IMG/VR virus record: IMGVR_UViG_3300046559_001153
Location: 124,001 to 188,000 of that record
Source of the DNA: a virus
DNA: 64,000 nt
Strand: one strand, 5' to 3'
The notes under the pieces were generated by a model. The model did not search any database, was not told the origin of the DNA, and worked only from the letters and a program-made list of their open reading frames with translations. Both the position numbers and the translations under genes were made by a program. Shown here one piece after another: positions 37,406 through 64,000 of this stretch. Each line of letters opens with the position of its first letter. Position 1 is the stretch's first letter.

Positions 37406-38080
37406 GTGCTGTTACTGTTCGGGGAACTATCACCGCCGAGCTGGGTCCGCGAAGTCTACTGTGCAGGTTTCGGCATAGGGCAGCGGTTCAAGCAGGCGGA
37501 TGCCCCGGAAGTAGTGCACGCGCTCTCAGGCATGCTGTATGTTACCCCCTCGAATTGGGGTTTACTGGCCGTCCCGAACGCCCTGGTTCGTGGCGTTTAT
37601 AGCGCCATTGACGAGCCGGGTGTTGAACTCCCAAGTCACAGCGAAAAACCAGGCAAACTGGATGCGCACATCAGCGTGTTCCGCCCTGAGGATATCGCGG
37701 CGATCGGCGGGCCCGGCAAGTTGACCGAGCGTGGCAAACACTTTCATTACACGACCGGGCAGCTCAAAACAGTTCAGCCTGCCGGCTGGCCGCAGATGAG
37801 CAAGGTCTGGATGCTCGAGGTTAAGAGTCCGGAGTTACAGACGTTGAGACAGTCGTACGGTCTCACTCCGCTGCCGCACGACAATGACTTCCAGTTTCAC
37901 ATTACTGTCGGAGTCCGTCGCAAGGGTGTACTGGGTCGTAACGAGATCAGCAAGTCGATCCTGGTCGACGACAAACCAGCCGACCCGCTTCCCGTACCAC
38001 GCAAATTTATCTGCAGCGTCTGCGGTCATGATGACTGTGCTGGCTGCACCGGGACAACACAGAGAGTCCACGTTCCATGA
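37406..38080 (+). CDS. 2H phosphoesterase-like protein with C-terminal zinc knuckle
   Basis: 224 residues, GTG start. Two HxS/T motifs, DAHISVF (about residue 88) and FQFHITVGV (about 164), define the 2H fold of RNA ligase/cyclic phosphodiesterase relatives. The C-terminus CSVCGHDDCAGC is a Cys knuckle. The family cleaves cyclic or 2',5'-linked phosphates in RNA repair or to defeat 2',5'- or cyclic-oligonucleotide signalling; which applies here is unknown. Confidence 0.65.
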   Translation: MLLLFGELSPPSWVREVYCAGFGIGQRFKQADAPEVVHALSGMLYVTPSNWGLLAVPNALVRGVYSAIDEPGVELPSHSEKPGKLDAHISVFRPEDIAAIGGPGKLTERGKHFHYTTGQLKTVQPAGWPQMSKVWMLEVKSPELQTLRQSYGLTPLPHDNDFQFHITVGVRRKGVLGRNEISKSILVDDKPADPLPVPRKFICSVCGHDDCAGCTGTTQRVHVP

Positions 38081-39141
38081 TCTCCACAGACGAGCAATCG
38101 GCCTGGCAGCAGATTGTCGGCCTGGCAGAAGCCAGAGCCGAAGCCTGTCGACCAATGGCCAAATCGGCTCAGGAGATCCTCGGGCGATTCCCGTTGCCGG
38201 ATGAAACTGCGCTTACCCAGGGACCAGACAATGAGCTGATCCTGGTCTCTGACGTCAGTGACGATCGGTTACACTGGCTTAAATTTGCGTTGGAACACGA
38301 GTTGGGTGAAGCCTACCTGGGCTGTGTCCCATCTCGAATTTGGGCTGACCCAGACGGTGACTATGTCAAGTTGGCCTATTCGCCTGTCGTTCGGTCAATG
38401 ACAGACACGATGAACTTGACGCCCGGCAAGCTGTTTGGCGTTGTTCCCAATACGCCTGGACCAGTTGCTTCTATGCTGACATCGGGCTTACTTGGCGCCG
38501 GTCTTGGCTACGGGGCGGGATGGATTGGCGAGAAGATGATGCCCAATGATTGGCGTCGCGGGCGTCTCAGCAAGACGTTGGCCCTGCTGGGTGGTGCGGC
38601 CGGCATTATGCCAGGACTGGCATATGGCATGACAAACAAGGCTAAGAATCTCCCGTTCAACGACAATACTACGCTTGATCATCCACCCACCGGCGGGATC
38701 ATGCCAGAGAATCATTTCCCGGTCGCGCCGTTGTTCCGCTCGGCCGTAGATTCGGTCAAAGAGAAGCTGGGTAGAGACCTGGCGGACAACTCAGGAATGA
38801 CTGGTGACATCCCGCCAATTCAGGTCGACAAGTTCAATCAGACCATCTGGGGAGACCCGTACGTCTCGCCGAATATCCCGTTGTCTACTCGAGGGGCAGC
38901 CACGTCAGCCGTTACGTTGGCCCAGCAGATGCCGGGTGGAATTGGGGCCGGGTGGGTCACGCCGATGCAACTGGGCCATATTGCCGCGGGCATGGGAGTA
39001 GGTTATGCTAGCGGTGCACTGGTAGGGGGAGTCCTCGGCCTTTTGACTGGGATGCCTGAGAGTACACAGGATCAGCTGAAAAGGACTGGTATGTATGCCG
39101 GTATCATTTCTGAGGTCGTTCCCATGCTGTTCGGAAGGTAG
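38077..39141 (+). CDS. Membrane-active protein with glycine-zipper helices (354 aa)
   Basis: The N-half is soluble. Hydrophobic Gly/Ala runs lie at about residues 128-148, 165-190 and 300-345 (GYGAGWIGEKM; MGVGYASGALVGG). ATGA overlap with the 2H gene. Composition like the genes at 20800, 22651 and 62411; candidate virion/ejection protein. Confidence 0.62.
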   Translation: MISTDEQSAWQQIVGLAEARAEACRPMAKSAQEILGRFPLPDETALTQGPDNELILVSDVSDDRLHWLKFALEHELGEAYLGCVPSRIWADPDGDYVKLAYSPVVRSMTDTMNLTPGKLFGVVPNTPGPVASMLTSGLLGAGLGYGAGWIGEKMMPNDWRRGRLSKTLALLGGAAGIMPGLAYGMTNKAKNLPFNDNTTLDHPPTGGIMPENHFPVAPLFRSAVDSVKEKLGRDLADNSGMTGDIPPIQVDKFNQTIWGDPYVSPNIPLSTRGAATSAVTLAQQMPGGIGAGWVTPMQLGHIAAGMGVGYASGALVGGVLGLLTGMPESTQDQLKRTGMYAGIISEVVPMLFGR

Positions 39142-40960: not shown

Positions 40961-41659
40961 ATGCAAAAGAAAGCTGACCCGGGAATTGATCTCGACGCGG
41001 CCCACTCGCAACTGGCGATGGAGCAGTTCAAGAAGATCCTGCTTCTTGGTGCCGGCGCCGGAATGGCTGCTCGCGGTGCATCTGGTTTTATCCACATGCT
41101 CCACCGGAATTCGCAGCCGGCGACGCCGTCGTCTGCCGCAGCCAACGTCCTGCCTTTCAAGGTGCCGACAAGACCTCAGCGAGAAGAAAAAATCGCCGTA
41201 CTCGAACCGTACAAGAACACCTGGTGGGCCATGCCGCTGCATGCGACTGGTGCTGTTGGGGCCACTTTCGGTGGTTACAAATTGATGGACTACCTGCTCA
41301 ACAAACAACGGCACAAAGGGCTGCAGGAAGAAGTCGATTCGGCCAAGTCAGATTTTGAATCGGCTTTGAGCCATCAGCCGATTGGTACAGGCAAACGGGC
41401 GGATGACAAGGCGTCCAAGCTGTCACAGCAACTGGATGAAATCTTCGACATCTGGCAGAAGCAGGCCAACTGGCCAACCTTCGGGGCCGGCACTGCTGCA
41501 ACCGTCGCCGCCCTTACGGCGGCCATCGGCGGCCATCTCGGGTACAGTGTGGCCAAGAGCCAGAGTGAGGCGAACCGACTGGATCTGGCCGAGAAAGAAC
41601 GCCAGAGACGTCGCCAGGTTTCAACGGCTCCGTTCCTGGTCGCCACCCCGGAGGGCTAA
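40961..41659 (+). CDS. Membrane protein with Gly/Ala helices (232 aa)
   Basis: Hydrophobic stretches at about residues 25-45, 85-105 and 170-200 (GAGTAATVAALTAAIGGHLG). The central linker is charged and helical. Could be a virion membrane component. Last gene before RNA polymerase. Confidence 0.58.
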   Translation: MQKKADPGIDLDAAHSQLAMEQFKKILLLGAGAGMAARGASGFIHMLHRNSQPATPSSAAANVLPFKVPTRPQREEKIAVLEPYKNTWWAMPLHATGAVGATFGGYKLMDYLLNKQRHKGLQEEVDSAKSDFESALSHQPIGTGKRADDKASKLSQQLDEIFDIWQKQANWPTFGAGTAATVAALTAAIGGHLGYSVAKSQSEANRLDLAEKERQRRRQVSTAPFLVATPEG

Positions 41660-41674
41660 TTAGCCCATCTTACC

Positions 41675-44600
41675 ATGTCAATCCTGTCTGGCTCCGGCAG
41701 CCTGCTCCAGCCGATGCGCCCTGCGGCCCACGAGGATGAGCCTGACAGCCTCACAGACATGTCCAAAGCGCGTCAAAGGCTGTTTGACCACACCTTGACG
41801 GCTGCGCAAGGCCTGGAGCCCCTGGCGAACTCCAAGCACACGTTAAAGCTGACCGACGTCCACTATTCTGGCCCGGACGAGTATTCTCTAAAGGACCAGA
41901 AGAAAGCCATTCTGACAGGTGACACGCTTGGCCGGACGCTGAAAGGCACATTCCAGCTTCTGGATAACGTCACAGGCCAGCTGGTCGACCAGAAACGGGT
42001 GACACTGGCTAACGTGCCTTACCGGACGGACCGTGGTACGTTCATCCACAATGGGACTGAATACGCCGTTCGAAATCAGATGCGGTTGTTGCCTGGTGTC
42101 TTTACCCGTATTCGAGGCAACGGCGAGATTGAAGCCCACACGAACGTTATGCCTGGGAAGGGGCTGAGCCACCGCTACTTTCTAGATCCTGACAAAGGCG
42201 TGTTCTACATTCGCGTAGCCCAGTCCAAGACGCCGCTAGTGTCGTTGCTCACCGCAATGGGCGTGACCCACCATCAATTGCGTGACGCCTGGGGCCCCGA
42301 GTTGGCCGCGACCAACTTGACGCATAACGATCCGGCTGACGTAAAGAAACTGGCCGGGAAATTTCTCCCGCGGATCCCCGAGAATCAGACCGAGGCGCAC
42401 ACGACTGAGCAACTGGTAAATGCCTTTCAGGCCATGGAGCTCGATCCGGAAGTCACTAAACGAACGCTCGGGCACCCATTTACCAATGTCGGACCGGAGA
42501 CCATTCTTCGAACGACACAGAAACTGCTTCAATTGCAAAAGGGCGAAGTTGAGCCCGACGATCGTGACCACCTGGCCTACCAGAAAATCATGGCGCCCGA
42601 GGATTTGTTCTCGGAACGGATTCGTCGCGATGCTGGCAACATTCGCCGTCAGCTGTTGTTCAAAGCCAGTCAGCGTGGCAATCTGCAGGGCATTGGTTCC
42701 CGACCGTTCCAGAAGCAATTGAACTCGGTCATCCTCACCAGCGGTGTCGGTACGGGTCTTGAGGAAACATCACCGCTCGAACTGCTGGACAAGATGTCAA
42801 CGATCACCAGCATGGGTGTCGGTGGACTACCAAGCACGACAGCCATTCCGTTGGAGTCCCGAGCCGTACAGCCAAGCCATCTCGGATTCATGGATCCACT
42901 GAAGACGCCCGAAAGCGAGGCGGCTGGCGTTATTCTGAATATCGCCGGACAGGTCCGTCGTAAGGCTGATGGGCAGCTCGCCAAACAATTCACCAATCTG
43001 CACACGGGGCAACTCGAGTGGCGTACCCCGCAGGACGTGGCTGATTCAGCCATCGCCTTCCCGGGTGAAATGGCCAAACCGGGCAAACGAATCATAGCCA
43101 TGTTGAATGGTAAGCTGCAGTATGTGTCCAAAGCCGATGTCAAATACGAGCTGCCGCATTTCGAACACGTCTTCAGCGACGTCACCAATCTGGTGCCGAT
43201 GAAGTCGGCTTTGAAGGGCCAGCGGGCAGTGATGGGTGCCCGTATGTTGACGCAAGCCCTGCCGCTCGAGAACCCCGAAGCCCCATTCGTTCAGTCGGCT
43301 GTTCCGGGAACGGGCGGGCAGAAGAGTTTTGACGAACACTTCGGTGGATTCATGGGTGCCGTGCGAGCCAAGCAGGGTGGTCAGGTCACTGCCGTATCGC
43401 CGGAAGCCATCACGGTCAAGCACGACGACGGAACGACGCAGAACTACGAGTTGTATGACTCGTTTCCGTTCAATCGCCGTAGCCGACTGCACAATACGCC
43501 AATGGTGCAACCGGGCCAGCGTGTCGGTCCGGACGATCTTCTGGCTAAGTCCAACTTCACCAACGACAACGGGGCAATCGCGATCGGCAAGAACGCCTAC
43601 ATCGGATACATGCCGTATGGAGCCGGCACCTACGAAGACGCCCAGCTGGTGTCGGAGAGCTTCGCCAAGAAACTGCGATCAGAACATTTGTACCAGCACG
43701 ACGCGACCTGGGGTGACGCACTCGATAAGAAAGGCAAAGCGCCATACGTGTCGCTGTTCCCGTCGAAGTTTGACCGAAAGCAGTTGGACACGATCGACGA
43801 GGATGGGGTCGTCAAGCCGGGCACGGTTGTTGATTACGGCCACCCACTCATTCTGCTGGCAAAGGGGCGAGAGCACTCGCAAAGCAAAGTGCATCGCAAG
43901 GGCCAGCTACAGCACACCGACGCGTCGGTGACCTGGTCGTACAACTCACCCGGTATCGTCCGCGACGTAGTGAAGACAGACAAAGGACCGATGGTCACTG
44001 TGACGTCTATGCGGTCGACACAGGAGTCAGACAAGTTGAGTGACCGATTCGGCGCCAAGGGTGTTATCGGCAAGATTCTGTCGGACGACTTGATGCCGCG
44101 TGACAGCACGGGTCGCCCATTCGACATGTTACTGAATCCGGCTGGTATCCCGTCGCGACTCAATCCGGTGAAGATCCACGAAGCCACACTCGGCAAGATT
44201 GCGGAAAAGACTGGCAAGCCGTACAAAATTGAGGATTTTTCGAACATTGCCGACCTGCGAGCCTTCGTCGAACAGGAAGCCCAGAAGCATGGCGTACCCG
44301 ACACAGAGACGGTCTTCGACCCAGGTACCAACAGATACATCCCCGGCGTGAAGACTGGCGTGCAGTGGATCATGAAGCTGCACCATATCGCCGAAGACAA
44401 AGAACAGGGTCGCGGTGCCTCGGGTGGTTACACACTCAGCGGTGTACCGGCCAAGGGTGGTGACGGTGAGTCAAGTAAGAAGCTGTCCATGGGGGAAACG
44501 AATGCCCTGTTGTCTCACGGTGCGTTGAATCTGCTGCGTGATTCGCAATTGTTACGAGGCCAGCGAAACGAACCATATTGGCTGGCCTTCATGCAGGGGC

Positions 44601-46093
44601 ACCGCCCGCCCGAGCCCGGTATCCCGCTTGTTTACGAGGAATTCATCAACGAATTGAAAGCTGCTGGGATCAACCCAGTTCGCAACGGGGCCAGCATGAA
44701 CGTCATGGCCTTGACGAACAAGGACATTGACCAGTTGTCGGGCGGCCGCGAATTGCAAAATGGGAACACGGTCAACTTTGACGGTGATCTGAGCCCGGTG
44801 GCCGGCGGCTTGTTCGATCCAGCTTTGACTGGCGGGCATATGGGCCGCCGATGGTCGCACGTAACGCTGGCCGACCCGATGCCCAATCCGGTGATGGAAG
44901 AGCCTATACGTAAACTGCTGGCCCTGACTAAGAACAAATTCGAAGGGGTTCTGGCTGGGACTGAATCGATCGGTTCGCACGGTACAGGACCGCAAGCTCT
45001 GTTCAAAGCCCTGCAGGGGATCAATCTGGACAAGGAGCTTTTGCTCGCCAGGATGCAGATCAAGTCGGGCAAGAAAACAGCCCGTGATGTGGCCGTTCGC
45101 AAACTAGGGTATCTCAAAGCAGCCAAGTCGCTGGGGATCCACCCGTCAGACTGGATGCTCGACAAAGCACCAATTCTTCCCCCCCTCTTTCGTCAGGTGG
45201 CGAAGATTTCCGATTCGGGCCAACCAATTATTTCCGATGCCAATTACCTTTACAAAGAGCTGATTGACGCGAATACGACGCTCAAGAAGCTGAAGGGGGT
45301 GGTGGGTGAAAACGTGGGTCAAGAACGCCTTGCGTTATATAACTCGTTCAAAGCAGTCACTGGCCTGGGCGACCCAAGCCATCCGAAACTGGTCGAGAAG
45401 GGAGTCAAAGGCCTGCTTGCCGGGATCTTCGGAAGTAGTCCCAAGTGGGGCTCAGTCCAGTCCCGATTACTCAGTACCCCTGTGGATATTGTTGGGCGTG
45501 CCACTGTACAGCCCAACGCCGACCTCGACATGGATTCCATTGGACTTCCCGAAGAACGAGCCTGGACCGTCTACAAAAACTTCATAGTCCGTCGCCTTAA
45601 ACGCCAAGGCATGCCGTTGACGAATGCCCTGCAGGCTCACAAGGATCAGACCCCGCTGGCGAAGAAAGCCCTGCTTGATGAGCTGGAGACGCGACCAGTT
45701 ATCTACAGCCGGGCGCCCATCCATCATAAGTACGGGATCATGGCCGCTTGGCCGCAGCTGGTGAAAGGTAACGCCGTTCACTTGTCACCGCTGGTGACGG
45801 TTGGATTTGGTGCGGACTTTGATGGCGATCAGATGAACTACCATGTGCCTGTGAGTGATGCGGAAGTGCAGGACGCTGTCGAGCGAATGCTGCCGTCTCG
45901 CAATTTGATCAGCCCGGCCGACTTTCGAACGCCCATGTTCATGCCACGGCACGAAATGCTAATGGGATTGTTCGAATCAACCAGACCGGATAGAATTGGT
46001 CGAAGTATCACATTTCGCAATAAGCAAGACGCTATTGCCGCTTATCGACGCGGAGAGTTGACCGTGCAGGATTCGGTGACAATTCTCCATTGA
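41675..46093 (+). CDS. Fused RNA polymerase beta + N-terminal half of beta' (1472 aa)
   Basis: A single protein carries beta then beta'. Beta landmarks: HLGFMDPLKTPES (residues 402-414, cf. HYGRICPIETPEG), KLSDRFGAKGVIGK (about 787-800, catalytic-site Lys K795), LNPAGIPSRLNP (switch/active-site loop) and MGETNALLSHGA. From about residue 1010 the sequence is beta': GLFDPALTG ... RRWSHVTLADPM, LLSTPVDIVGRATV, RAPIHHKYGIMAAWP and the Mg-binding DFDGD with D1381, D1383, D1385. It stops about 87 residues later, after AYRRGELTVQD, without bridge helix or trigger loop; these are in the gene at 52732. Function: catalytic core of a phage multisubunit RNA polymerase. Confidence 0.93.
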   Translation: MSILSGSGSLLQPMRPAAHEDEPDSLTDMSKARQRLFDHTLTAAQGLEPLANSKHTLKLTDVHYSGPDEYSLKDQKKAILTGDTLGRTLKGTFQLLDNVTGQLVDQKRVTLANVPYRTDRGTFIHNGTEYAVRNQMRLLPGVFTRIRGNGEIEAHTNVMPGKGLSHRYFLDPDKGVFYIRVAQSKTPLVSLLTAMGVTHHQLRDAWGPELAATNLTHNDPADVKKLAGKFLPRIPENQTEAHTTEQLVNAFQAMELDPEVTKRTLGHPFTNVGPETILRTTQKLLQLQKGEVEPDDRDHLAYQKIMAPEDLFSERIRRDAGNIRRQLLFKASQRGNLQGIGSRPFQKQLNSVILTSGVGTGLEETSPLELLDKMSTITSMGVGGLPSTTAIPLESRAVQPSHLGFMDPLKTPESEAAGVILNIAGQVRRKADGQLAKQFTNLHTGQLEWRTPQDVADSAIAFPGEMAKPGKRIIAMLNGKLQYVSKADVKYELPHFEHVFSDVTNLVPMKSALKGQRAVMGARMLTQALPLENPEAPFVQSAVPGTGGQKSFDEHFGGFMGAVRAKQGGQVTAVSPEAITVKHDDGTTQNYELYDSFPFNRRSRLHNTPMVQPGQRVGPDDLLAKSNFTNDNGAIAIGKNAYIGYMPYGAGTYEDAQLVSESFAKKLRSEHLYQHDATWGDALDKKGKAPYVSLFPSKFDRKQLDTIDEDGVVKPGTVVDYGHPLILLAKGREHSQSKVHRKGQLQHTDASVTWSYNSPGIVRDVVKTDKGPMVTVTSMRSTQESDKLSDRFGAKGVIGKILSDDLMPRDSTGRPFDMLLNPAGIPSRLNPVKIHEATLGKIAEKTGKPYKIEDFSNIADLRAFVEQEAQKHGVPDTETVFDPGTNRYIPGVKTGVQWIMKLHHIAEDKEQGRGASGGYTLSGVPAKGGDGESSKKLSMGETNALLSHGALNLLRDSQLLRGQRNEPYWLAFMQGHRPPEPGIPLVYEEFINELKAAGINPVRNGASMNVMALTNKDIDQLSGGRELQNGNTVNFDGDLSPVAGGLFDPALTGGHMGRRWSHVTLADPMPNPVMEEPIRKLLALTKNKFEGVLAGTESIGSHGTGPQALFKALQGINLDKELLLARMQIKSGKKTARDVAVRKLGYLKAAKSLGIHPSDWMLDKAPILPPLFRQVAKISDSGQPIISDANYLYKELIDANTTLKKLKGVVGENVGQERLALYNSFKAVTGLGDPSHPKLVEKGVKGLLAGIFGSSPKWGSVQSRLLSTPVDIVGRATVQPNADLDMDSIGLPEERAWTVYKNFIVRRLKRQGMPLTNALQAHKDQTPLAKKALLDELETRPVIYSRAPIHHKYGIMAAWPQLVKGNAVHLSPLVTVGFGADFDGDQMNYHVPVSDAEVQDAVERMLPSRNLISPADFRTPMFMPRHEMLMGLFESTRPDRIGRSITFRNKQDAIAAYRRGELTVQDSVTILH

Positions 46094-46105: not shown

Positions 46106-46678
46106 ATGACTCGACGCAAAATTTGCACATACTGCGGTAAATTGAAAGCGACTAGCGCGTACGGTAAAAAAGGCGCTGGGCTTAATCATCATTGCAAAGA
46201 TTGTGACAGCATCAAGCAACAAGCTTTCGCAAAAACCCCCCACGGCCGAGCGGTTAAAGCTTGGAATTTGATCAAGTATCGTGTCAGAAACCCGTACGGG
46301 AAAAATAAGACGTATGTTGGTGTTGAACTCCGGATGACTCGCGACGAATTCATGACCTGGGCTGTTCCGGCTTATACCGCATGGGTTACTGATGGAAATC
46401 TGATTGAATCGGCTTCTGTGGATCGAAAAGAAGACGGGCATTACGCGATCGGAAATCTTCAGATCATTTCTCGGGTTGAAAACGCCAAAAAGCAAAAACG
46501 TAATAAAAACGTACACGCTCCGGCCGGCCACGCGTGGTGCCCTAGCTGTGTCCAGTACAAATTGAAATGTGAGTTCTACACGGACAAGGCTAGTTGGAAT
46601 GGCGTAAGTTGCCGTTGCCGACAATGTCACAACCAATATCACCGCAATTATTACAGACAGCGACAATTATCTAAATGA
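46106..46678 (+). CDS. HNH homing-endonuclease-like protein
   Basis: 190 residues, starting 12 bases after the truncated RNAP gene. An N-terminal Cys knuckle ICTYCGKLKATSAYG ... HHCKDC, the HNH core ESASVDRKEDGHYAIGNLQI with ISRVENAKKQ, and a second knuckle CPSCVQYKLKCEF ... CRQC. More AT-rich than its neighbours, as expected of a mobile gene. It sits exactly at the break in beta', so it is the prime suspect for splitting the gene. Confidence 0.82.
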   Translation: MTRRKICTYCGKLKATSAYGKKGAGLNHHCKDCDSIKQQAFAKTPHGRAVKAWNLIKYRVRNPYGKNKTYVGVELRMTRDEFMTWAVPAYTAWVTDGNLIESASVDRKEDGHYAIGNLQIISRVENAKKQKRNKNVHAPAGHAWCPSCVQYKLKCEFYTDKASWNGVSCRCRQCHNQYHRNYYRQRQLSK

Positions 46679-52455: not shown

Positions 52456-52694
52456 TGTACATCGAAGCCATCGAACGATTCGGTAAGCCGCCCGTGCGGT
52501 TGGAAGTCAGTCAGGTCGTCATTTACCGAGACGACGGAACCCCCATCTCGCTGGCCAGTTTGTACGGCCCCGATGGGGCCATTTTCGTTGAAACGGCCGA
52601 GGATCCGGAAAAATTCAACAAGGCCCTGCAGACACTGGGGATCGATAAAACAGTCATCGTCGACAACCTGGTCATGTCCGAACCAACCCAATAA
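52455..52694 (+). CDS. Hypothetical protein (79 aa)
   Basis: TGATG start. Mixed alpha/beta sequence (VRLEVSQVVIYRDDGTPISL). Its TAA stop is the first three bases of palindromic copy 5, so the last codons and the regulatory element abut. Confidence 0.6.
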   Translation: MYIEAIERFGKPPVRLEVSQVVIYRDDGTPISLASLYGPDGAIFVETAEDPEKFNKALQTLGIDKTVIVDNLVMSEPTQ

Positions 52695-52731: not shown

Positions 52732-55700
52732 ATGCCCGCGACCTTCATAGGGAAAATGGGTCAGCTGCTGGTCAACGAGGCTCTGCCCGAAGATCTGCGT
52801 AACGGTAAGACCCTGGATTCAAGGGGCTTGACCGACCTGCTGCGGGATGTGGCTGAACGTCACCCCGACAAGTACCGGGACATCTCACACAAGTTGACCC
52901 AGCTGGGTGAAGACGCAGCTCAGCAACTCGGCGGCTATTCGTTCGGGCTCAATGCCATGCGACGGGCCGGGTCAGCCAATGTCATTCGCGATCGCATCAA
53001 AAGCCAGGTTCAGTCACTGCTCGACAATGACAACCTGTCAGATGATGCACGCGAGTCCCAGATCGTCAAACTCCTGGGTCAGGCCCAGTCAGAACAAGAG
53101 AACGCCGTCTACGACGAGAGTTTGAAAGAGAACAATCCGATCGCCTTGCAGATCAAGTCAGGCGCTCGCGGCAAGAAGATGGCTCTCAATTCTCTGCGTG
53201 GGTCCGATCTGCTGTATGTCGACCATCGCGACCGGCCAGTGCCCATCCCCGTCCTGCGGAGTTACCCTGAGGGCCTGTCGCCGGCCGAGTATTGGGCTGG
53301 GGCCTATGGTGCTCGTCACGGCATTGTCAGTGTGAAGCTGGGCACAGCCCAGTCAGGCTTCCTGGCGAAACAACTCAATCAAGCGACCCACCGGCTGATT
53401 GTGACGCATGAGGATGACGCTCCGGTCGATACGGTCCGAGGCCTGCCAGTCCCTGTCGACGATAACGACAATGTGGGGGCCTTGCTGGCCCATCCGGCTG
53501 GTGGTTTTGGGCGGAACACGGTTCTGACGCCCAAGGTTCTGAAGTCCCTGCATGATGGCGGCATTCAGAGAATTCTGGTACGCAGCCCGACTGTTGGCGG
53601 GGCACCTGATGGGGGTCTCTACTCACGCGATGTTGGCATTCGAGAAACTGGCGGTCTGCCGCCCAAAGGAACGTTCTCCGGTCTGCAGGCCGGTCAGGCG
53701 ATCTCTGAGCCGTTGTCGCAGGCCACCTTGTCCGCCAAGCACGCAGGGGGCGTTGCCGGAGCATCCAAATCAGTGTCAGGCTTTGCCTGGATCAACGCCC
53801 TGGTTCAGATCCCCAAGGTATTTCCTGGCGGGGCAACGCATTCAGAAGTAGACGGGCGTGTGCAGCAGATTACCAAGGCACCTGGCGGCGGTTTGCACGT
53901 GCAGGTGAACGGACTGGAGCATTACGTGCCGCACGGGCTGGCTTTGACAGTTGCCCCGGGCGACGCGGTTGAAGCTGGCGACGTGCTCAGTGAGGGCATT
54001 CCCAGCCCGGCCGAGATCGTCAAGCACAAGGGAATTGGTGAAGGTCGCCGGTACTTTGTGGATGCCATGCGTAAAGCATTGACCGACTCTGGTGTTCGAA
54101 ACAATCGCCGAAATCTCGAACTCATCAGTCGTGGTCTGATCAATCACGTCGAGCTCGACGCGGAGATCGGCGAACACGCGCCAGACGACGTTGTCCCATT
54201 CGACACGATCGAACGGGATTACGAGCCGAGAGAAGGCAGTCACACGCTGCCTGTCCACCAGGCAATCGGCCAGTATCTCGAGAAGCCCTACCTGCACCAC
54301 ACGATTGGTACGAAGGTCAAATCGAGCATGTTGCCGGACTTCAAGCATTTTGGAGTTGAATCGGTTCACGTGCACAAAGATCCGCCGCTATTCCATCCGC
54401 TCATGGTTCGCGGTATGTACAACTTGCAGCACGACCCGGACGCCATGACAAGGAATCTAGGTTCAGGGCTGCAGGCAAGCTTCCTGGACTCGGTCCACCG
54501 TGGCGGCGGCAGCGACGAAAAGGGTACCAGCTATGTTCCCGGCCTGGCCCGTACTGTGGATTTTGGCCGCATTGGCGTTATCCGGCCGACTGTGGTTACA
54601 CCGCAGAGATCGACTATGAAAATCGCAGCTGGCAGCCCGATTGCCCCGGCTCTCGACCCGAAACCGGCTCCCATCAAACCACTGGCGCCACCACAGCCTC
54701 AAATAAAACCGATTGCTCCTCCACCGTCGCCGGCTTTGCAGGCGAAGCCTCAATCTGTGCTGGGCGATAGTTCGATCAACGGGTTCGGTGACTTCTTCCA
54801 TCATGCCGGTAATCTGCTGCGTGGGCCCGGGTACGACGCCGGGATGGCACCGGCAACTGCCGGTTTCAAGAACACGATGACGCCGCAGCAGTTTGGCCAA
54901 CAGATGCGGACTGATCTTCCCGGTCTGCCTAATCCGGTTGCACCAGCCGCACAACCCGGAGTATGGGATCAAGCGAAAGCCATAGCGCCTGGCCTGGCTA
55001 CCAATCTCGGGGTTAATGTAGCTGGGCAGCAGATAGCAAAAAATACGTTGGTGCGAGCCGTTCCCAGATTAGGAGTAGGTGCCGCCTCAAAGCTCTTGCC
55101 TCTCGGTATCGGCGCCGCAGTTGCCGAGCCGATTGGGTGGCTCGGTAAAAAGACCGGAATTCCAGGCTTCGAAAACGATGCAGCATATGACACCAATGCG
55201 TATCGTCAAGAGGCCGAAGGTTTGCACTACGGGATGCCGGCCGGCTGGCGTCAGGACACCAATCGACCGTGGTATATTCGAATGGGAGACTGGTTGGCCA
55301 ATGACGCAGGAACAGCCGTAATGCAGCCTCAGACGGCCGTCATGAACGCGTTTGGCAAGTCGAGCGATGACGCCTTGGGAATTCCTTCTCGCGACGAGAT
55401 GGGAGACTTATCCAAGCTCGAAACGGGCAAGCTCTATGACCTGTTTACACAGCTCCATAACGCCACCAAAGCCGGTCCCCACACTGATCTGAGGATTGGC
55501 GATCCGGAGCAGGGGCTGCACTCTTGGGCCGTGCCGAAGGGTTTACCCGAGTCTGGGAAGAAGCATCTGGCTGTCCACCAGCCAATTCACGAGCATTCCT
55601 ACGGGGGCTGGTCGGGCACGATTCCCGAGGGCGAATACGGGGCCGGTACGGTCAAGAGTCAGATCAAGGGCAAGGCCCTGGTGACCGAGTCGGGTCCGGG

Positions 55701-56883
55701 CAAACTGCATTTTACGACAGCTCACATGAAGCATCCCGAGCGGTTCACTGTGGTGGCGCCAAAAAGCTTCGGTGAAAACAATCACCTGCTGCTCAACACG
55801 ACGCCGACCGAGCCGCTGCCGTACCAGAAGATCCACTACAAGAAAGTTCCGACCGAACAGGTCGAAGGAAAGTTGAAGGAGTTAGAACCCGGTTCGTCGG
55901 TGCAGGCCAAGATTGACGGTGCATCGAGCCTGGTCAAACTGCTCAAGGATCAGCTCGAACTGTATTCGTACCGGGCATCAAAGCCGACAGGAAAACCAAT
56001 CATTCACACGGAGAAGGTGTTACATGGCCGGCCTCGGATTGAGATCCCTCCTGAGTACCACAACAGCATCCTGCGCGGTGAGTTACACGGGGTCAAGCAA
56101 GACTCCGAAGGAAAAGAAACGGTTATTCATCCCAGCGAACTTGGTGGTATCCTCAACTCAACGATTGCTCACTCGCTGGCAAAACAAGAGACCTCAGGCG
56201 TTCGGCTCCGTAACGCACTGTTCGACATTCAACAGGTTGGCAACACGCCAATTGACTTCTCCAAGACGCCATATTCTGAACGTCGGGAACACTTGAAGAG
56301 CATTCTGCCGTCGCTGCCGCAGGACATTTTTCACTTGACCGACGAAGCCAAGACACCGGAAGATGCGCTGAAGTTGTGGAAAGACATTGGTAGCGGGGAT
56401 CACCCGAAAACTGAGGAAGGAATCGTTATCCACTCTCCAACGGGCAAGCCCCAGAAGGCTAAGTACATTGAAGATCACGACGTTCACATCCGCGGTATTT
56501 TCCCTGGCGAAGGCCGTCTTGCTGGAACTCATGCCGGCGGCTTTGAGTACTCTGCTGAGCCTGATGGTCCTATTCTCGGCCGTGTTGGCACTGGCTTTTC
56601 TGACGATGTTCGTCGCCAGATGCATGATCGACCTGACGATTTCGTGGGGCGGGTTGCCCGGGTGAAGTCCCAGGAGAAGTTGCAGTCGGGTGCGTTGAGA
56701 GCTCCGGCTTATATCGCTCTCCACGAAGATTACCCAGTGTCGTCGGCTTTGAATAAGGCGGCCGAGCTAGAACGCGTCCGTCTGCGTGTGAAAGAATTGG
56801 CAGAGAAAAAGGCGACCGCTTCTCCAATTTCTCTGGCCAGAGAACGCCTTCAAGCTATCCGAGCGAAAAATTTGGGCCTATAA
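52732..56883 (+). CDS. RNA polymerase beta' C-terminal half fused to LigD-type phosphoesterase and ATP-dependent DNA ligase (1383 aa)
   Basis: Three functional blocks. Residues 1-630: beta' C-half. FIGKMGQLLVNEALPED resumes the break in the 41675 product; SGARGKK (143-149), then PEGLSPAEYW, GARHGIVSVKLGTAQSGFLAKQL-type bridge helix; trigger loop within 317-340 (SEPLSQATLSAKHAGG); PGDAVEAGDVLSEG and the terminal helix. About 635-890: Pro-rich linker and Gly/Ala hydrophobic segment. About 890-1040: LigD 3'-phosphoesterase (HTDLRIG, SWAVPKGLP, GTIPEGEYGAGTV). About 1040-1350: ligase NTase with the adenylation Lys K1060 in AK-IDG, LRGELHG, EEGIVI at 1228 and a motif V Lys. The start at 52732 avoids a 122-base overlap with the previous gene. 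Confidence 0.9.
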   Translation: MPATFIGKMGQLLVNEALPEDLRNGKTLDSRGLTDLLRDVAERHPDKYRDISHKLTQLGEDAAQQLGGYSFGLNAMRRAGSANVIRDRIKSQVQSLLDNDNLSDDARESQIVKLLGQAQSEQENAVYDESLKENNPIALQIKSGARGKKMALNSLRGSDLLYVDHRDRPVPIPVLRSYPEGLSPAEYWAGAYGARHGIVSVKLGTAQSGFLAKQLNQATHRLIVTHEDDAPVDTVRGLPVPVDDNDNVGALLAHPAGGFGRNTVLTPKVLKSLHDGGIQRILVRSPTVGGAPDGGLYSRDVGIRETGGLPPKGTFSGLQAGQAISEPLSQATLSAKHAGGVAGASKSVSGFAWINALVQIPKVFPGGATHSEVDGRVQQITKAPGGGLHVQVNGLEHYVPHGLALTVAPGDAVEAGDVLSEGIPSPAEIVKHKGIGEGRRYFVDAMRKALTDSGVRNNRRNLELISRGLINHVELDAEIGEHAPDDVVPFDTIERDYEPREGSHTLPVHQAIGQYLEKPYLHHTIGTKVKSSMLPDFKHFGVESVHVHKDPPLFHPLMVRGMYNLQHDPDAMTRNLGSGLQASFLDSVHRGGGSDEKGTSYVPGLARTVDFGRIGVIRPTVVTPQRSTMKIAAGSPIAPALDPKPAPIKPLAPPQPQIKPIAPPPSPALQAKPQSVLGDSSINGFGDFFHHAGNLLRGPGYDAGMAPATAGFKNTMTPQQFGQQMRTDLPGLPNPVAPAAQPGVWDQAKAIAPGLATNLGVNVAGQQIAKNTLVRAVPRLGVGAASKLLPLGIGAAVAEPIGWLGKKTGIPGFENDAAYDTNAYRQEAEGLHYGMPAGWRQDTNRPWYIRMGDWLANDAGTAVMQPQTAVMNAFGKSSDDALGIPSRDEMGDLSKLETGKLYDLFTQLHNATKAGPHTDLRIGDPEQGLHSWAVPKGLPESGKKHLAVHQPIHEHSYGGWSGTIPEGEYGAGTVKSQIKGKALVTESGPGKLHFTTAHMKHPERFTVVAPKSFGENNHLLLNTTPTEPLPYQKIHYKKVPTEQVEGKLKELEPGSSVQAKIDGASSLVKLLKDQLELYSYRASKPTGKPIIHTEKVLHGRPRIEIPPEYHNSILRGELHGVKQDSEGKETVIHPSELGGILNSTIAHSLAKQETSGVRLRNALFDIQQVGNTPIDFSKTPYSERREHLKSILPSLPQDIFHLTDEAKTPEDALKLWKDIGSGDHPKTEEGIVIHSPTGKPQKAKYIEDHDVHIRGIFPGEGRLAGTHAGGFEYSAEPDGPILGRVGTGFSDDVRRQMHDRPDDFVGRVARVKSQEKLQSGALRAPAYIALHEDYPVSSALNKAAELERVRLRVKELAEKKATASPISLARERLQAIRAKNLGL

Positions 56884-57150: not shown

Positions 57151-59652
57151 ATGTCCATTCTGCTTGCAGGTAGCCAGTCGCTCGCGAAACGCGCTAACAT
57201 CGGCGGCGATCCTGAAGGGAACTTCGAACAATCGTTCGCCTCGCTGGGCTATAACTTCCTGAGTGAAAAAGCCCCCAGGCTGCTCGAGCACATGCTGGGC
57301 TTCCAGCTGCTTGACCGCAACGACGACATGTCACGAGCTGTCGGCGTTTATGGTTTCCAGGCTGATACCAAGCGACTGTACATGCCTTTGTTTTTCCTGA
57401 ATGGGGAACTTCGCGGCCAGGAATTGCTCTTCGTTCAGAACAAGGACGAGGGGCAGTTTGTCCCCATGAAGGAGAACTGGGTCAACTTCCTGCTCAGCAA
57501 GTCGCCACACATCATGGGCGAGGCGTCGCAGAAGGATGTGTTCCAGATGGGCGGGATGTGGCCGGACCTGCGTCCATTCACGAACGCTTACCGCGGTAGC
57601 AAATACTCATGCGACATGCCGCGTATCCAAGAGTGGGCCAAGCCGTTCATGCCCGTCTATGCTCGTCTCTGTACGACCAACCCTCTGCGTGACACTCGTT
57701 ACGCGAAGATCGCGACAGCCCAAAACCTGCTGAGCGAATCTCCGATGGCCGTGAAAATGGCCATCGATCTGTGTGACCGATTCCCGAACGTCAAGGCGGC
57801 CATGCACCGGTGTTACGGAGCGGACGTCTTTGAGAAGGCTCTACTGACCATCAAAGCCCGACTGACCAAAGAGGCGTCGGATCGAGGCAGCATTCTCTCG
57901 TTCAAGCCGCAGAAGGTGGCAGTCGCGCGTTCCCGATCGAGCATACTGCCCGACCTGACCCCCCAGGACCCCGTTAAGCTGGGGGCTTTGAAGATTATGC
58001 GGGTCGATCCGAATGAACGTTTTACGCACAACATTCCCGATCGATCACGCGAAGAGGCCACTGGCGACACCCGCCGCGGCGCCGTCGTGATCACCGACAA
58101 ACGCTTGCCGCAGGACAAGTCGACCCTGTACAACACGGCGATCCATACGGCCTACACGAATCCAACTCGATCTTCCCTGGCTGAGGTGCTGGCCGGGGCC
58201 GGCAAGTTCGAGAAGTGCCTGATCATCCATCGCCCATACTCCGGCAAGGGGCAGCACACCTTCGTGACTGTCGTCCGAGCGGAAGGTCAAAGTTCAGCCC
58301 GCAACTGGATCAACTCGGACGCTACGAACATTTACGTTCGCCAGCCGATTGAAAGCCAGTTCGATTTCAAGACCTGGTTCGACGGATTGTCGTCCGCCAA
58401 GATGACCAAGGACAGCACGTATGTCGCGCTGACCGGTGACGGCCGCGGTACATTGCCGTTTACAGTGAACAGCGTTCTGGATGATGACTGTTACCGAGTC
58501 CAATACGAGACCGGACACAAGCGACCACAGTACGCTCACATGTCGCGAAATTACAGCACCAACGGATTGGGCGACCGCGACACGCCGCCCAATCCGTCGG
58601 GTTACACGGATTACAATGCCTTGCTGCATTTGAACGGCCGTAAGGGCTCCAGCATCCACGCCGTTGGTGGCGAACTGTGGATCCCCGACAGCGCTAAAAT
58701 CCTCAAGATCCAAGACCCATTTGACCCAGAAGATGACAGTGACGAAGACTCAATTTCGCCGCTCCAGCCTGGCAACCTGATTGACGTGCAGAATCAGATC
58801 TACCAGAAAACAGCGTCCCTCAAGCTCTGGACGGTTGGGTCAGACGAAATCGCTCTGTCGACAAAGTTTGGCACGCGCCGCATGAGCAAACAAGCCGCTT
58901 ACGTGGCGATGGTTGCTGACCTTGGGCTGGGGATTGATGATGCAGACGCGGCCATGGACAAAGTGACCAAAGCCGGTTCGGCCAAGTTCAGGATTCTGTA
59001 CGGACCGTTCTACCAGAAGCGGGCTGACGCGTGGCCCGGCTACGGCGGCGACCTGCTTGATCAGGGCCCGAGTGCTCCCCGAGAAGGGCCGCCACCGACC
59101 GGATCCGGCTTCCCGTGGTACGGCGGAGCGATCAACAAGTATCCGCAGGAGGAGTACCTGGAAGTTCCAGGACTCAATGCCTACTCAACCAATCCCTGGA
59201 TCTACGATCCCACTCGTATCCCCGATCCAGGGACTGGCCCCGGCGCCTACGGCACAGACCAGGCCGGGTCGGGAAGCTTCTCTCAGGGTCAGGATTCGTC
59301 ATCCCAGGGCGTCCAAAATGCGGCGGCATCTGGCCAGAAGGAAGTCTTCGATACGACCATCTTGAGCAACCTGCTCAACTCGGTTCGACAGGAGAGCGTG
59401 GTCGATCGCTACTTGAGCGACCTGATGACTGGGCTTGACCGAATCGGGCGTATTCTGTTCAGCTTCTACTGGCACATGGATGACGTCAAAGAGCACTACG
59501 GTGCGGCCGAGACGCCCGATCTCATCGATGCCATGCGAAATGCGTTTGAAGAATGCGGCGACGTCACGTTGAAACTTCGTCAGAACTCGATGAACCCTGA
59601 CATGGGTGAAATGGGATCGCCGAACGTTGAAGACGTGGCTCGTGCTGACTGA
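57151..59652 (+). CDS. Large probable virion protein (833 aa)
   Basis: No recognised family. N-terminal module (1-230) FNGELRGQELLFVQNKDEGQ and a helical RIQEWAKPFMPVYARLC; middle (260-560) beta-rich with AVVITDKRLP and TFVTVVRAEGQSS; near 620-760 a Pro/Gly/Tyr-rich region (PPPTGSGFPWYGG); helical C-terminus. Size, position and a strong context (palindrome and next structural-like gene) suggest a virion component; unproven. Confidence 0.62.
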   Translation: MSILLAGSQSLAKRANIGGDPEGNFEQSFASLGYNFLSEKAPRLLEHMLGFQLLDRNDDMSRAVGVYGFQADTKRLYMPLFFLNGELRGQELLFVQNKDEGQFVPMKENWVNFLLSKSPHIMGEASQKDVFQMGGMWPDLRPFTNAYRGSKYSCDMPRIQEWAKPFMPVYARLCTTNPLRDTRYAKIATAQNLLSESPMAVKMAIDLCDRFPNVKAAMHRCYGADVFEKALLTIKARLTKEASDRGSILSFKPQKVAVARSRSSILPDLTPQDPVKLGALKIMRVDPNERFTHNIPDRSREEATGDTRRGAVVITDKRLPQDKSTLYNTAIHTAYTNPTRSSLAEVLAGAGKFEKCLIIHRPYSGKGQHTFVTVVRAEGQSSARNWINSDATNIYVRQPIESQFDFKTWFDGLSSAKMTKDSTYVALTGDGRGTLPFTVNSVLDDDCYRVQYETGHKRPQYAHMSRNYSTNGLGDRDTPPNPSGYTDYNALLHLNGRKGSSIHAVGGELWIPDSAKILKIQDPFDPEDDSDEDSISPLQPGNLIDVQNQIYQKTASLKLWTVGSDEIALSTKFGTRRMSKQAAYVAMVADLGLGIDDADAAMDKVTKAGSAKFRILYGPFYQKRADAWPGYGGDLLDQGPSAPREGPPPTGSGFPWYGGAINKYPQEEYLEVPGLNAYSTNPWIYDPTRIPDPGTGPGAYGTDQAGSGSFSQGQDSSSQGVQNAAASGQKEVFDTTILSNLLNSVRQESVVDRYLSDLMTGLDRIGRILFSFYWHMDDVKEHYGAAETPDLIDAMRNAFEECGDVTLKLRQNSMNPDMGEMGSPNVEDVARAD

Positions 59653-63511: not shown

Positions 63512-63517
63512 ACTCCC

Positions 63518-64000
63518 ATGATGACCAAAGTGATTAGCCCGGCCGGCTGGGACTTCGGCACTGCCCTGACCGAGATGGTCAAGGTATCCAGCCGCGGACT
63601 GATTGGCAGTGACCGTAACTCGCTGATCAAGCGAGCCGGTTACGCATTTGCCAACCTGGTCGATCACTCGGATTTGAAGCCCGGAGACGTCCCCATTCAT
63701 CAGATTGCGATGGGGGCCACCGAACGTTATCTGGCCAACCGTAACGGAGATGGATTCAAACGGGCCAACCTGATTCGAACGATCGACACGTTTGTGAAGC
63801 GTGCCCGGTACTACCGCAATCACCAGAACAAGGATCCCCGCAAGTCGTACGGGGTGATTAAGAGAGCGGCTTACCACGACCCGATGGATCGTGTTGAGCT
63901 TTTGATCTTTTTGAATGGGACAAAAGAGGCGGCTGACCGTAATGGTGGCCTGGTAGCCGATCGCGAACTTCAGCAACTCGAAAAGACCGGTGAGCTGGCT
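63518..64000 (+). CDS. Partial gene, possible prohead-protease-like protein
   Basis: Open from ATG 63518 to the window end (161 codons, no stop). GDVPIHQIAMGATERYLANR, RARYYRNHQNKDPRKSYG and DPMDRVELLIFLNG recall capsid maturation proteases of T4-like phages (the short N-terminal 'NHKNKDP...Y' block and a strand ending in VEL). The catalytic triad cannot be checked because the gene is truncated. Confidence 0.5.
   Translation, partial: MMTKVISPAGWDFGTALTEMVKVSSRGLIGSDRNSLIKRAGYAFANLVDHSDLKPGDVPIHQIAMGATERYLANRNGDGFKRANLIRTIDTFVKRARYYRNHQNKDPRKSYGVIKRAAYHDPMDRVELLIFLNGTKEAADRNGGLVADRELQQLEKTGELA

Follow-up and report, generated by a model that had tools for sequence, protein, structure and literature searches.

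Why should a subunit of a phage RNA polymerase (RNAP) end in a DNA ligase? The question was raised by a stretch of 64,000 nucleotides, hereafter the window, which comprises bases 124001–188000 of the 224,270-base virus record IMGVR_UViG_3300046559_001153. Positions 52732–56883 (+ strand) of the window were found to form a single open frame of 1383 codons plus a stop, in which the C-terminal half of RNAP beta' (beta'C) is followed by a LigD-type 3'-phosphoesterase (PE) and an ATP-dependent DNA ligase. To our knowledge, fusions of multisubunit RNAP subunits to other enzymes are rare, and none to a DNA ligase is known to us. The joining of pieces that are separate in relatives suggests that transcription and DNA repair are delivered together by this phage. 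The explanation that we favor, with a probability somewhat above one half, is a polyvalent-type protein in which a LigD-like PE-ligase cassette became attached, by way of a long and flexible linker, to the C-terminal end of a split beta', the purpose likely being co-delivery. A mobile end-healing-and-sealing cassette was probably grafted onto a putatively virion-delivered RNAP.

The Fused Reading Frame

The fused frame had the top codon score of the six frames in all 28 sliding segments of 300 bases (28/28), linker included. The start at 52732 was preceded by a Shine-Dalgarno-like site (AGGTAGG, -6.5 kcal/mol); the start of a longer open reading frame (ORF) at 52573 was devoid of such a site (-1.7 kcal/mol). 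The Pfam matches followed one another along the protein in the order RNA_pol_Rpb1_5 (2.8e-17, amino acids (aa) 181–355), LigD_N (3.3e-12, aa 907–981), and DNA_ligase_A_M (1.1e-5, aa 1041–1244), and the matches of the beta'C, PE, and ligase domains lie far beyond chance. A preliminary description, made from the sequence alone, had placed here a beta' C-half joined in frame, without interruption, to a LigD-like PE and to a ligase; the open frame, the codon score, and the Pfam matches bear it out in position, frame, and domain content. It had proposed structural prediction as a check, and AlphaFold was confident for the polymerase half (to aa ~614) as well as for the PE-ligase (residues 880–1383), where the mean predicted local distance difference test score (pLDDT) was 88.5. 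The features of the locus and its surroundings are presented in Table 1.

Table 1. Features of the fused gene and of neighboring genes in the window.
Feature	Coordinates	Strand	Evidence
RNA polymerase beta' C-terminal half, aa 1–614	52732..54573	+	Pfam RNA_pol_Rpb1_5; profile vs solved beta'; AlphaFold
Linker, aa 615–879 (~265 residues)	54574..55368	+	Composition; pLDDT; coding character
LigD-type 3'-phosphoesterase, aa 880–1029	55369..55818	+	Pfam LigD_N; 3p4h match; AlphaFold
ATP-dependent DNA ligase, nucleotidyltransferase + OB fold	55819..56769	+	Pfam; PHROG 114; motifs; Foldseek
C-terminal helical tail of fused protein	56770..56880	+	AlphaFold helices near model end
Stand-alone 2H phosphoesterase (2H-SAK)	37406..38080	+	Pfam PF22547 3.5e-11
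Syntenic marker gene 1, directly after 2H gene	38077..39141	+	Homologues downstream of PE-ligase gene in L176, L174
Syntenic marker gene 2, just upstream of beta-beta'N	40961..41659	+	Homologues in same place in L176, L174, L180
Partner subunit, beta fused to beta' N-half (beta-beta'N)	41675..46093	+	Pfam Rpb2_6 1.2e-41, Rpb1_2 1.1e-17
Endonuclease VII/HNH-like ORF, directly 3' of beta-beta'N	46106..46678	+	PHROG 1035 1.1e-11
Conserved gene after beta'C in relatives	57151..59652	+	Homologue of Arash gp218 'structural protein'

Relatives, cited here by L and G numbers, were detected once alignments including relatives served as search profiles; scans with the whole protein or with the PE-ligase of the window alone gave no matches, and an alignment of the PE domain by itself yielded nothing usable as a pattern. 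Matches in the phage collection that were bacterial contigs filed as phages were set aside. The RNAP regions of OR844998, OR846602, and CAKLQF020000005 were plain bacterial rpoBC operons on host contigs filed as phage. The PE-ligase fusion was present in none of the 92 other distinct beta'C sequences and was found in no phage GenBank record, in agreement with the preliminary description, whose author knew of no such polymerase-ligase fusion. Near-identical records may be omitted from the scans by design, and the uniqueness of the fusion is therefore relative to the records returned. By these comparisons the PE-ligase enzyme itself is not unique to this genome; its fusion to RNAP is unique within the sample.

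The Polymerase Half and Its Partner

The polymerase half corresponds to beta' from past the active-site domain onward. A profile built from 20 beta'C relatives matched solved bacterial beta' with an E-value of 1e-63, and the fold was predicted confidently throughout this half. The bridge helix and the trigger loop, both named in the preliminary description, were recovered by the Pfam match to RNA_pol_Rpb1_5 and by AlphaFold helices at those sites, a long one at about aa 184–219 (bridge helix) and another at about aa 316–338 (trigger loop).

The ORF of the partner subunit terminates after the active-site GADFDGD, so that beta' is split after the double-psi beta-barrel (DPBB) active site, and the beta'C profile aligned with solved split beta' chains, e.g., 8h3v_B, from near the first residue. 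The same split point is known in jumbo phages and cyanobacteria (PMC7598289). The beta-beta'N fusion was also found in Salmonella phage Arash (gp206) and in many metagenomic relatives, and others cut beta or beta' differently. The split arrangement of beta-beta'N and beta'C is ordinary in this lineage; since it is lineage-wide, it is not peculiar to this genome. A role of the adjacent endonuclease in causing the split was considered and rejected, because the split is lineage-wide and lies at the site used by jumbo phages and cyanobacteria. Only one RNAP set was found in the 224-kb record, which may be incomplete.

In Arash and in relatives of the L013 type, the C-terminal zinc site of beta' has kept its four Cys; the subclade of the window has lost them. 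In the RNAPs of relatives (L114, L130 with three inteins, L132, L133, L134, L135, L140, L145, and L021), intein-like insertions are crowded into the catalytic region, several of them at the trigger loop, and they were also present in beta (L077, L080, L089, L117, and L136). The RNAP of the window contained none, unlike several relatives.

The record apparently represents a 224-kb phage of the RNAP-encoding Caudovirales lineage termed mReC (Weinheimer and Aylward, 2020; PMC7481178). Its beta and beta' were recognizable with cellular-type profiles, as in mReC, and it contained Caudovirales virion genes, with a portal-like protein (1e-45) and a major capsid protein (MCP)-like protein (2.5e-30) matching proteins of Arash. 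The MCP family PF07068, reported for mReC (PMC7481178), had no match at E ≤ 1 in the possibly incomplete record, and the assignment to mReC is therefore given as apparent. No mention of split, ligase, or virion was found in the text of the mReC paper (PMC7481178).

The Repair Half

The PE domain contained the catalytic residues H909, H917, D919, R921, H953, and Y957; among 24 PE-ligase sequences the H/H/D/R/H set was invariant and the Tyr nearly so. The catalytic residues of the ligase, i.e., Lys1060 of KxDG, E1117, E1229, and K1242/K1244, were likewise present, and the KxDG lysine, the glutamates of motifs III and IV, and the lysines of motif V were invariant in the 24 relatives. Against solved structures, the PE-ligase profile matched the PE domains 3p4h (2.7e-20) and 3n9b (9e-16) and also DNA ligases. 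The top Foldseek matches of the PE-ligase model were DNA ligases, and the matches included those of T4 and archaea and the LigD ligase domain. A LigD-type PE removes 3'-ribonucleotides and 3'-phosphates ahead of sealing (PMC8656161). The PE domain of the fused protein would accordingly be expected to remove 3'-phosphates and 3'-terminal ribonucleotides, and the ligase would then seal nicks.

The fused ligase was the only ligase found in the 224-kb record, in which a dedicated profile found the fused copy alone. The search of the same record with PF01068 missed it, and therefore the absence of a ligase by PF01068 is weak evidence.

PE-Ligase in Related Phages

The PE-ligase was found, with 35–54% identity, in 26 viral loci besides the window and in a single contig that was binned as Flavobacteriales and that also carries a phage-type RNAP. 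It was either free, with a length of about 460–570 aa (e.g., L172, L173, L177, L181, L186, and L197), or situated inside proteins of up to 2984 aa. Its partners included a 2H phosphoesterase, a polyvalent-type inorganic pyrophosphatase (InPase, PF18823), a SNF2 helicase, and DUF5661; inspection added GNAT, ParB-like, HAD, and metallopeptidase-like segments. The 2H domain was fused N-terminally to the PE-ligase in L171, L176, L178, and L179. At least three changes between the free and the fused state were found on the tree. The PE-ligase is a cassette that in this lineage circulates free or built into large multi-domain proteins from the virion-gene region. In more distant relatives the PE domain without the ligase was joined to different partners, once to a LigD primase-polymerase domain.

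The RNAP beta of L195 (14832–20369) and of L191/L192 (19038–21458) contained an in-frame insert of 374–465 aa at the same site (query aa ~246). The insert carried a 2H domain and, in L191, also SET- and HAD-like segments. Repair-type enzymes have therefore been attached to this RNAP more than once. The RNAP is one carrier of end-repair enzymes, with the PE-ligase on beta' in the window and 2H inside beta in two other lineages.

Further arrangements were seen in the relatives. The gene at L162:6685–15636 (- strand), which is the same gene as L179:4985–13936, encodes a 2984-aa phage protein with 2H, a metallopeptidase-like part, many repeats of ~15 residues, the PE-ligase, a ParB-like part, and a SNF2 helicase. 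A 2223-aa protein at L063:3313–9981 (- strand), polyvalent in style, contained GNAT, a LigD-type PE, and papain/metallopeptidase-like segments. In a distant relative (L022:8010–9296), a protein with LigD-like PrimPol and PE, and without a ligase domain, overlaps the end of beta-beta'N. The PE-ligase gene of L196 (8180–8911 and 9992–10765) was interrupted by about 1.1 kb, possibly an intron or intein that contains a homing endonuclease.

Gene Order

The PE-ligase gene was located 13–20 kb upstream of beta'C, on the same strand, in five of the seven records that contained both genes. The order in L176 was 2H with PE-ligase in one gene, directly followed by marker 1, and further on marker 2 directly followed by beta-beta'N. 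The order in the window was 2H alone, directly followed by marker 1, then marker 2 with beta-beta'N, and finally the beta'C-PE-ligase gene. No other copy of the PE-ligase was found by the dedicated profile at the usual upstream place in the record. The simplest reading is that the PE-ligase module apparently moved about 15 kb onto beta'C and that the 2H part stayed upstream. The gene beginning at 57151 is the usual follower of beta'C elsewhere, which argues against a chimeric contig.

Elsewhere in the same phage, genes matching Arash gp222 and portal, located at 63512–64000 of the window with continuation into L072:1–2130 and at L066:1850–4732, appear to contain inteins (Hint/LAGLIDADG, Intein_splicing). 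An ORF at 73–741 of the window contained a long Cys-Ser-rich run of repeats (SRCSDC/SGCSDC units).

The Linker and the Tails of Beta'C

The linker begins with a Pro-rich part (22% P, no E), followed by a Gly/Ala-rich, mildly hydrophobic stretch. Its pLDDT was <50 over the whole length, and it is thus predicted to be disordered. In a beta'C tree built from phage sequences only, long C-terminal tails were found in 6 of the 93 distinct sequences, and all six, that of the window included, fell within one clade of eight sequences (97% support). The five other long tails were devoid of a PE-ligase. In sister groups a small Pro-rich gene was often found directly downstream of beta'C, and it is plausible for this reason that the tails stem from a read-through fusion with such a gene. 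Homology of the linker with the beta'C extensions of relatives was not demonstrated, as the leave-one-out profile (E 0.009, 8.9 bits vs. 4.0 for the best of 200 shuffles) was too weak.

Interpretation and Alternative Explanations

In N4-like, crAss-like, and jumbo phages, the virion contains the RNAP, which is injected together with the DNA. In the phage studied here, the beta'C half would work with the beta-beta'N protein as the only detected RNAP. If this RNAP were packaged and injected with the DNA, the PE-ligase would enter along with it and, as early transcription begins, could heal nicks or ends in the entering genome. That repair is directed to the transcribed template is speculative; the preliminary description had raised a tie between end repair and transcription as a possibility. 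Since the PE-ligase cassette joins many partners, the fusion is accounted for at least equally well by joint delivery in the virion as by such a tie.

Several points weigh against co-delivery by a polyvalent-type protein. The fusion was present in one record only, and no second genome with it was found. We infer the packaging of RNAP in this lineage, and in Arash the label 'structural protein' is attached to neighbors, not to the RNAP. The protein of the window itself contained no catalogued polyvalent domain, and the beta'C extensions of relatives were not demonstrably homologous with its linker. Relatives hold repair and RNAP separate, and the fusion is therefore not needed for either.

The alternative that survives best, with a chance a little below even, is passive hitch-hiking. 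The fusion would give the PE-ligase only a ride in the virion or a shared expression level, and the linker would be cut after entry, leaving the parts independent. The PE-ligase was joined to many unrelated partners and the linker is predicted to be disordered, so that no fixed geometry of polymerase and ligase is implied; moreover, polyvalent proteins such as DdrB of P1 are thought to be processed (PMC5512222). However, no protease or protease site was identified, and the linker might just as well serve as a flexible tether allowing the polymerase-bound ligase to reach DNA. Coupling of repair to transcription is conjectural, and separate action after cleavage is about equally likely.

A bolder proposal is a covalent polymerase-ligase machine for transcription-coupled repair, in which the phage RNAP would arrive in the cell with its own enzyme for healing 3' ends and sealing nicks and would apply it to the DNA being transcribed; we consider it doubtful. 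The corresponding rival, that the ligase is tethered so that template nicks or 3'-blocked ends are healed where the polymerase meets them, is unlikely as well. The catalytic motifs were all kept on both sides of the fusion and 2H was inserted in the RNAP beta of two other lineages, but no relative has a PE-ligase on RNAP and the partners of the cassette were mostly not RNAP.

It is distinctly improbable that the frame yields two proteins, with an internal start in the linker giving a separate PE-ligase of about 500–520 aa. Free PE-ligases occur in relatives, an AGGA stands at a workable distance from ATG 55321, and the position of ATG 55342 is suitably far upstream of the module. However, the site scores were at background level, as 28% of the internal in-frame ATGs equalled 55321, and the frame was unbroken, though a stop would be costless were the parts separate. 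The preliminary description had suggested initiation at ATG 55399. This start was rejected as unlikely, because its Met lies within the conserved PE motif APGIPDR..[M/F/Y]GDLSKL, is replaced by Phe/Tyr in many relatives, and has a ribosome-site score equalled or bettered by 32% of internal ATGs.

An artefact of assembly or sequencing, i.e., a chimeric contig or an erased stop codon that joined two genes, would fit the occurrence of the fusion in a single record and the fact that in some of the RNAP-closest relatives (L075, L074, and L077) beta'C extends no more than about 55 residues past the core. It is nevertheless very improbable, since the flanking genes match relatives in the expected order, the codon signal is continuous across the 265 linker codons, beta'C is likewise extended at length, though by different sequences, in five of the seven nearest relatives, and the usual upstream place contains no other PE-ligase copy.

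Co-delivery, the preferred explanation, would have wider consequences. If these proteins are injected, the genome of such a phage would arrive with a kit for repairing DNA or RNA ends, and this would bear on the question of how phage genomes of very large size withstand nicks and host nucleases at entry. The relatives indicate how such a fusion can arise, with 2H, a LigD-type PE, and an ATP ligase forming a cassette that moves between multi-domain proteins. The fused protein also offers a natural polymerase-ligase enzyme for asking whether tethering speeds the repair of transcribed templates.

Comparison with Known Systems

The nearest described phages are Salmonella phage Arash (OQ632216) and Vibrio phage D181 (OZ196140), in which beta' is split and beta'C is separate, as in the window. 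Arash also has the same beta-beta'N fusion, and its portal-like, MCP-like, and gp218-like proteins have counterparts in the record. However, the beta'C of Arash and D181 (606 and 609 aa, respectively) is without PE or ligase.

Polyvalent proteins are large phage proteins, thought to be injected with the DNA, in which mixed enzymatic domains occur in one long polypeptide encoded near virion genes (Iyer et al., 2017; PMC5512222). The fused protein likewise contained at least two different enzymatic domains (beta'C, PE, and ligase), and its gene adjoins virion structural genes. The 2H, InPase, ParB, SNF2, GNAT, and ART domains belong to the polyvalent repertoire (PMC5512222; PMC7824862). The protein of the window is without a domain of the published polyvalent network; in relatives the PE-ligase was joined to InPase, 2H, GNAT, and SNF2. 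Polyvalent proteins with RNAP are known, such as the N4 virion RNAP with metallopeptidase and ART domains (PMC5512222); these RNAPs are single-subunit, whereas that of the window is multisubunit. LigD is unmentioned in that survey, which reports that the 2H domains it covers never occurred together with RNA ligases (PMC5512222), whereas relatives of the window join 2H, PE, and a DNA ligase.

Bacterial LigD (POL-PE-LIG), which acts in non-homologous end joining (NHEJ), combines the PE residue set H/H/D/R/H/Y with an ATP-dependent ligase in one protein (PMC8656161), as does the fused protein, which however is without the POL domain. The POL (PrimPol) domain was absent from the record, and only one distant relative (G013/L022) contained it; Ku was found in none of the 38 records searched. 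Classical NHEJ was rejected on these two grounds.

The virion RNAP of AR9/PBS1-type jumbo phages (PMC7598289) is also multisubunit, with beta' split after the DPBB and a nucleic-acid enzyme fused to a subunit. There, an HD domain is N-terminal on beta and two RNAP sets are present, whereas in the window the PE-ligase is C-terminal on beta' and one set was found. The fusion of RNAP with a PE-ligase is unique within our sample, whereas RNAP as a carrier of extra enzymes is already known from the N4-type virion RNAP and the HD domain of the AR9 type.

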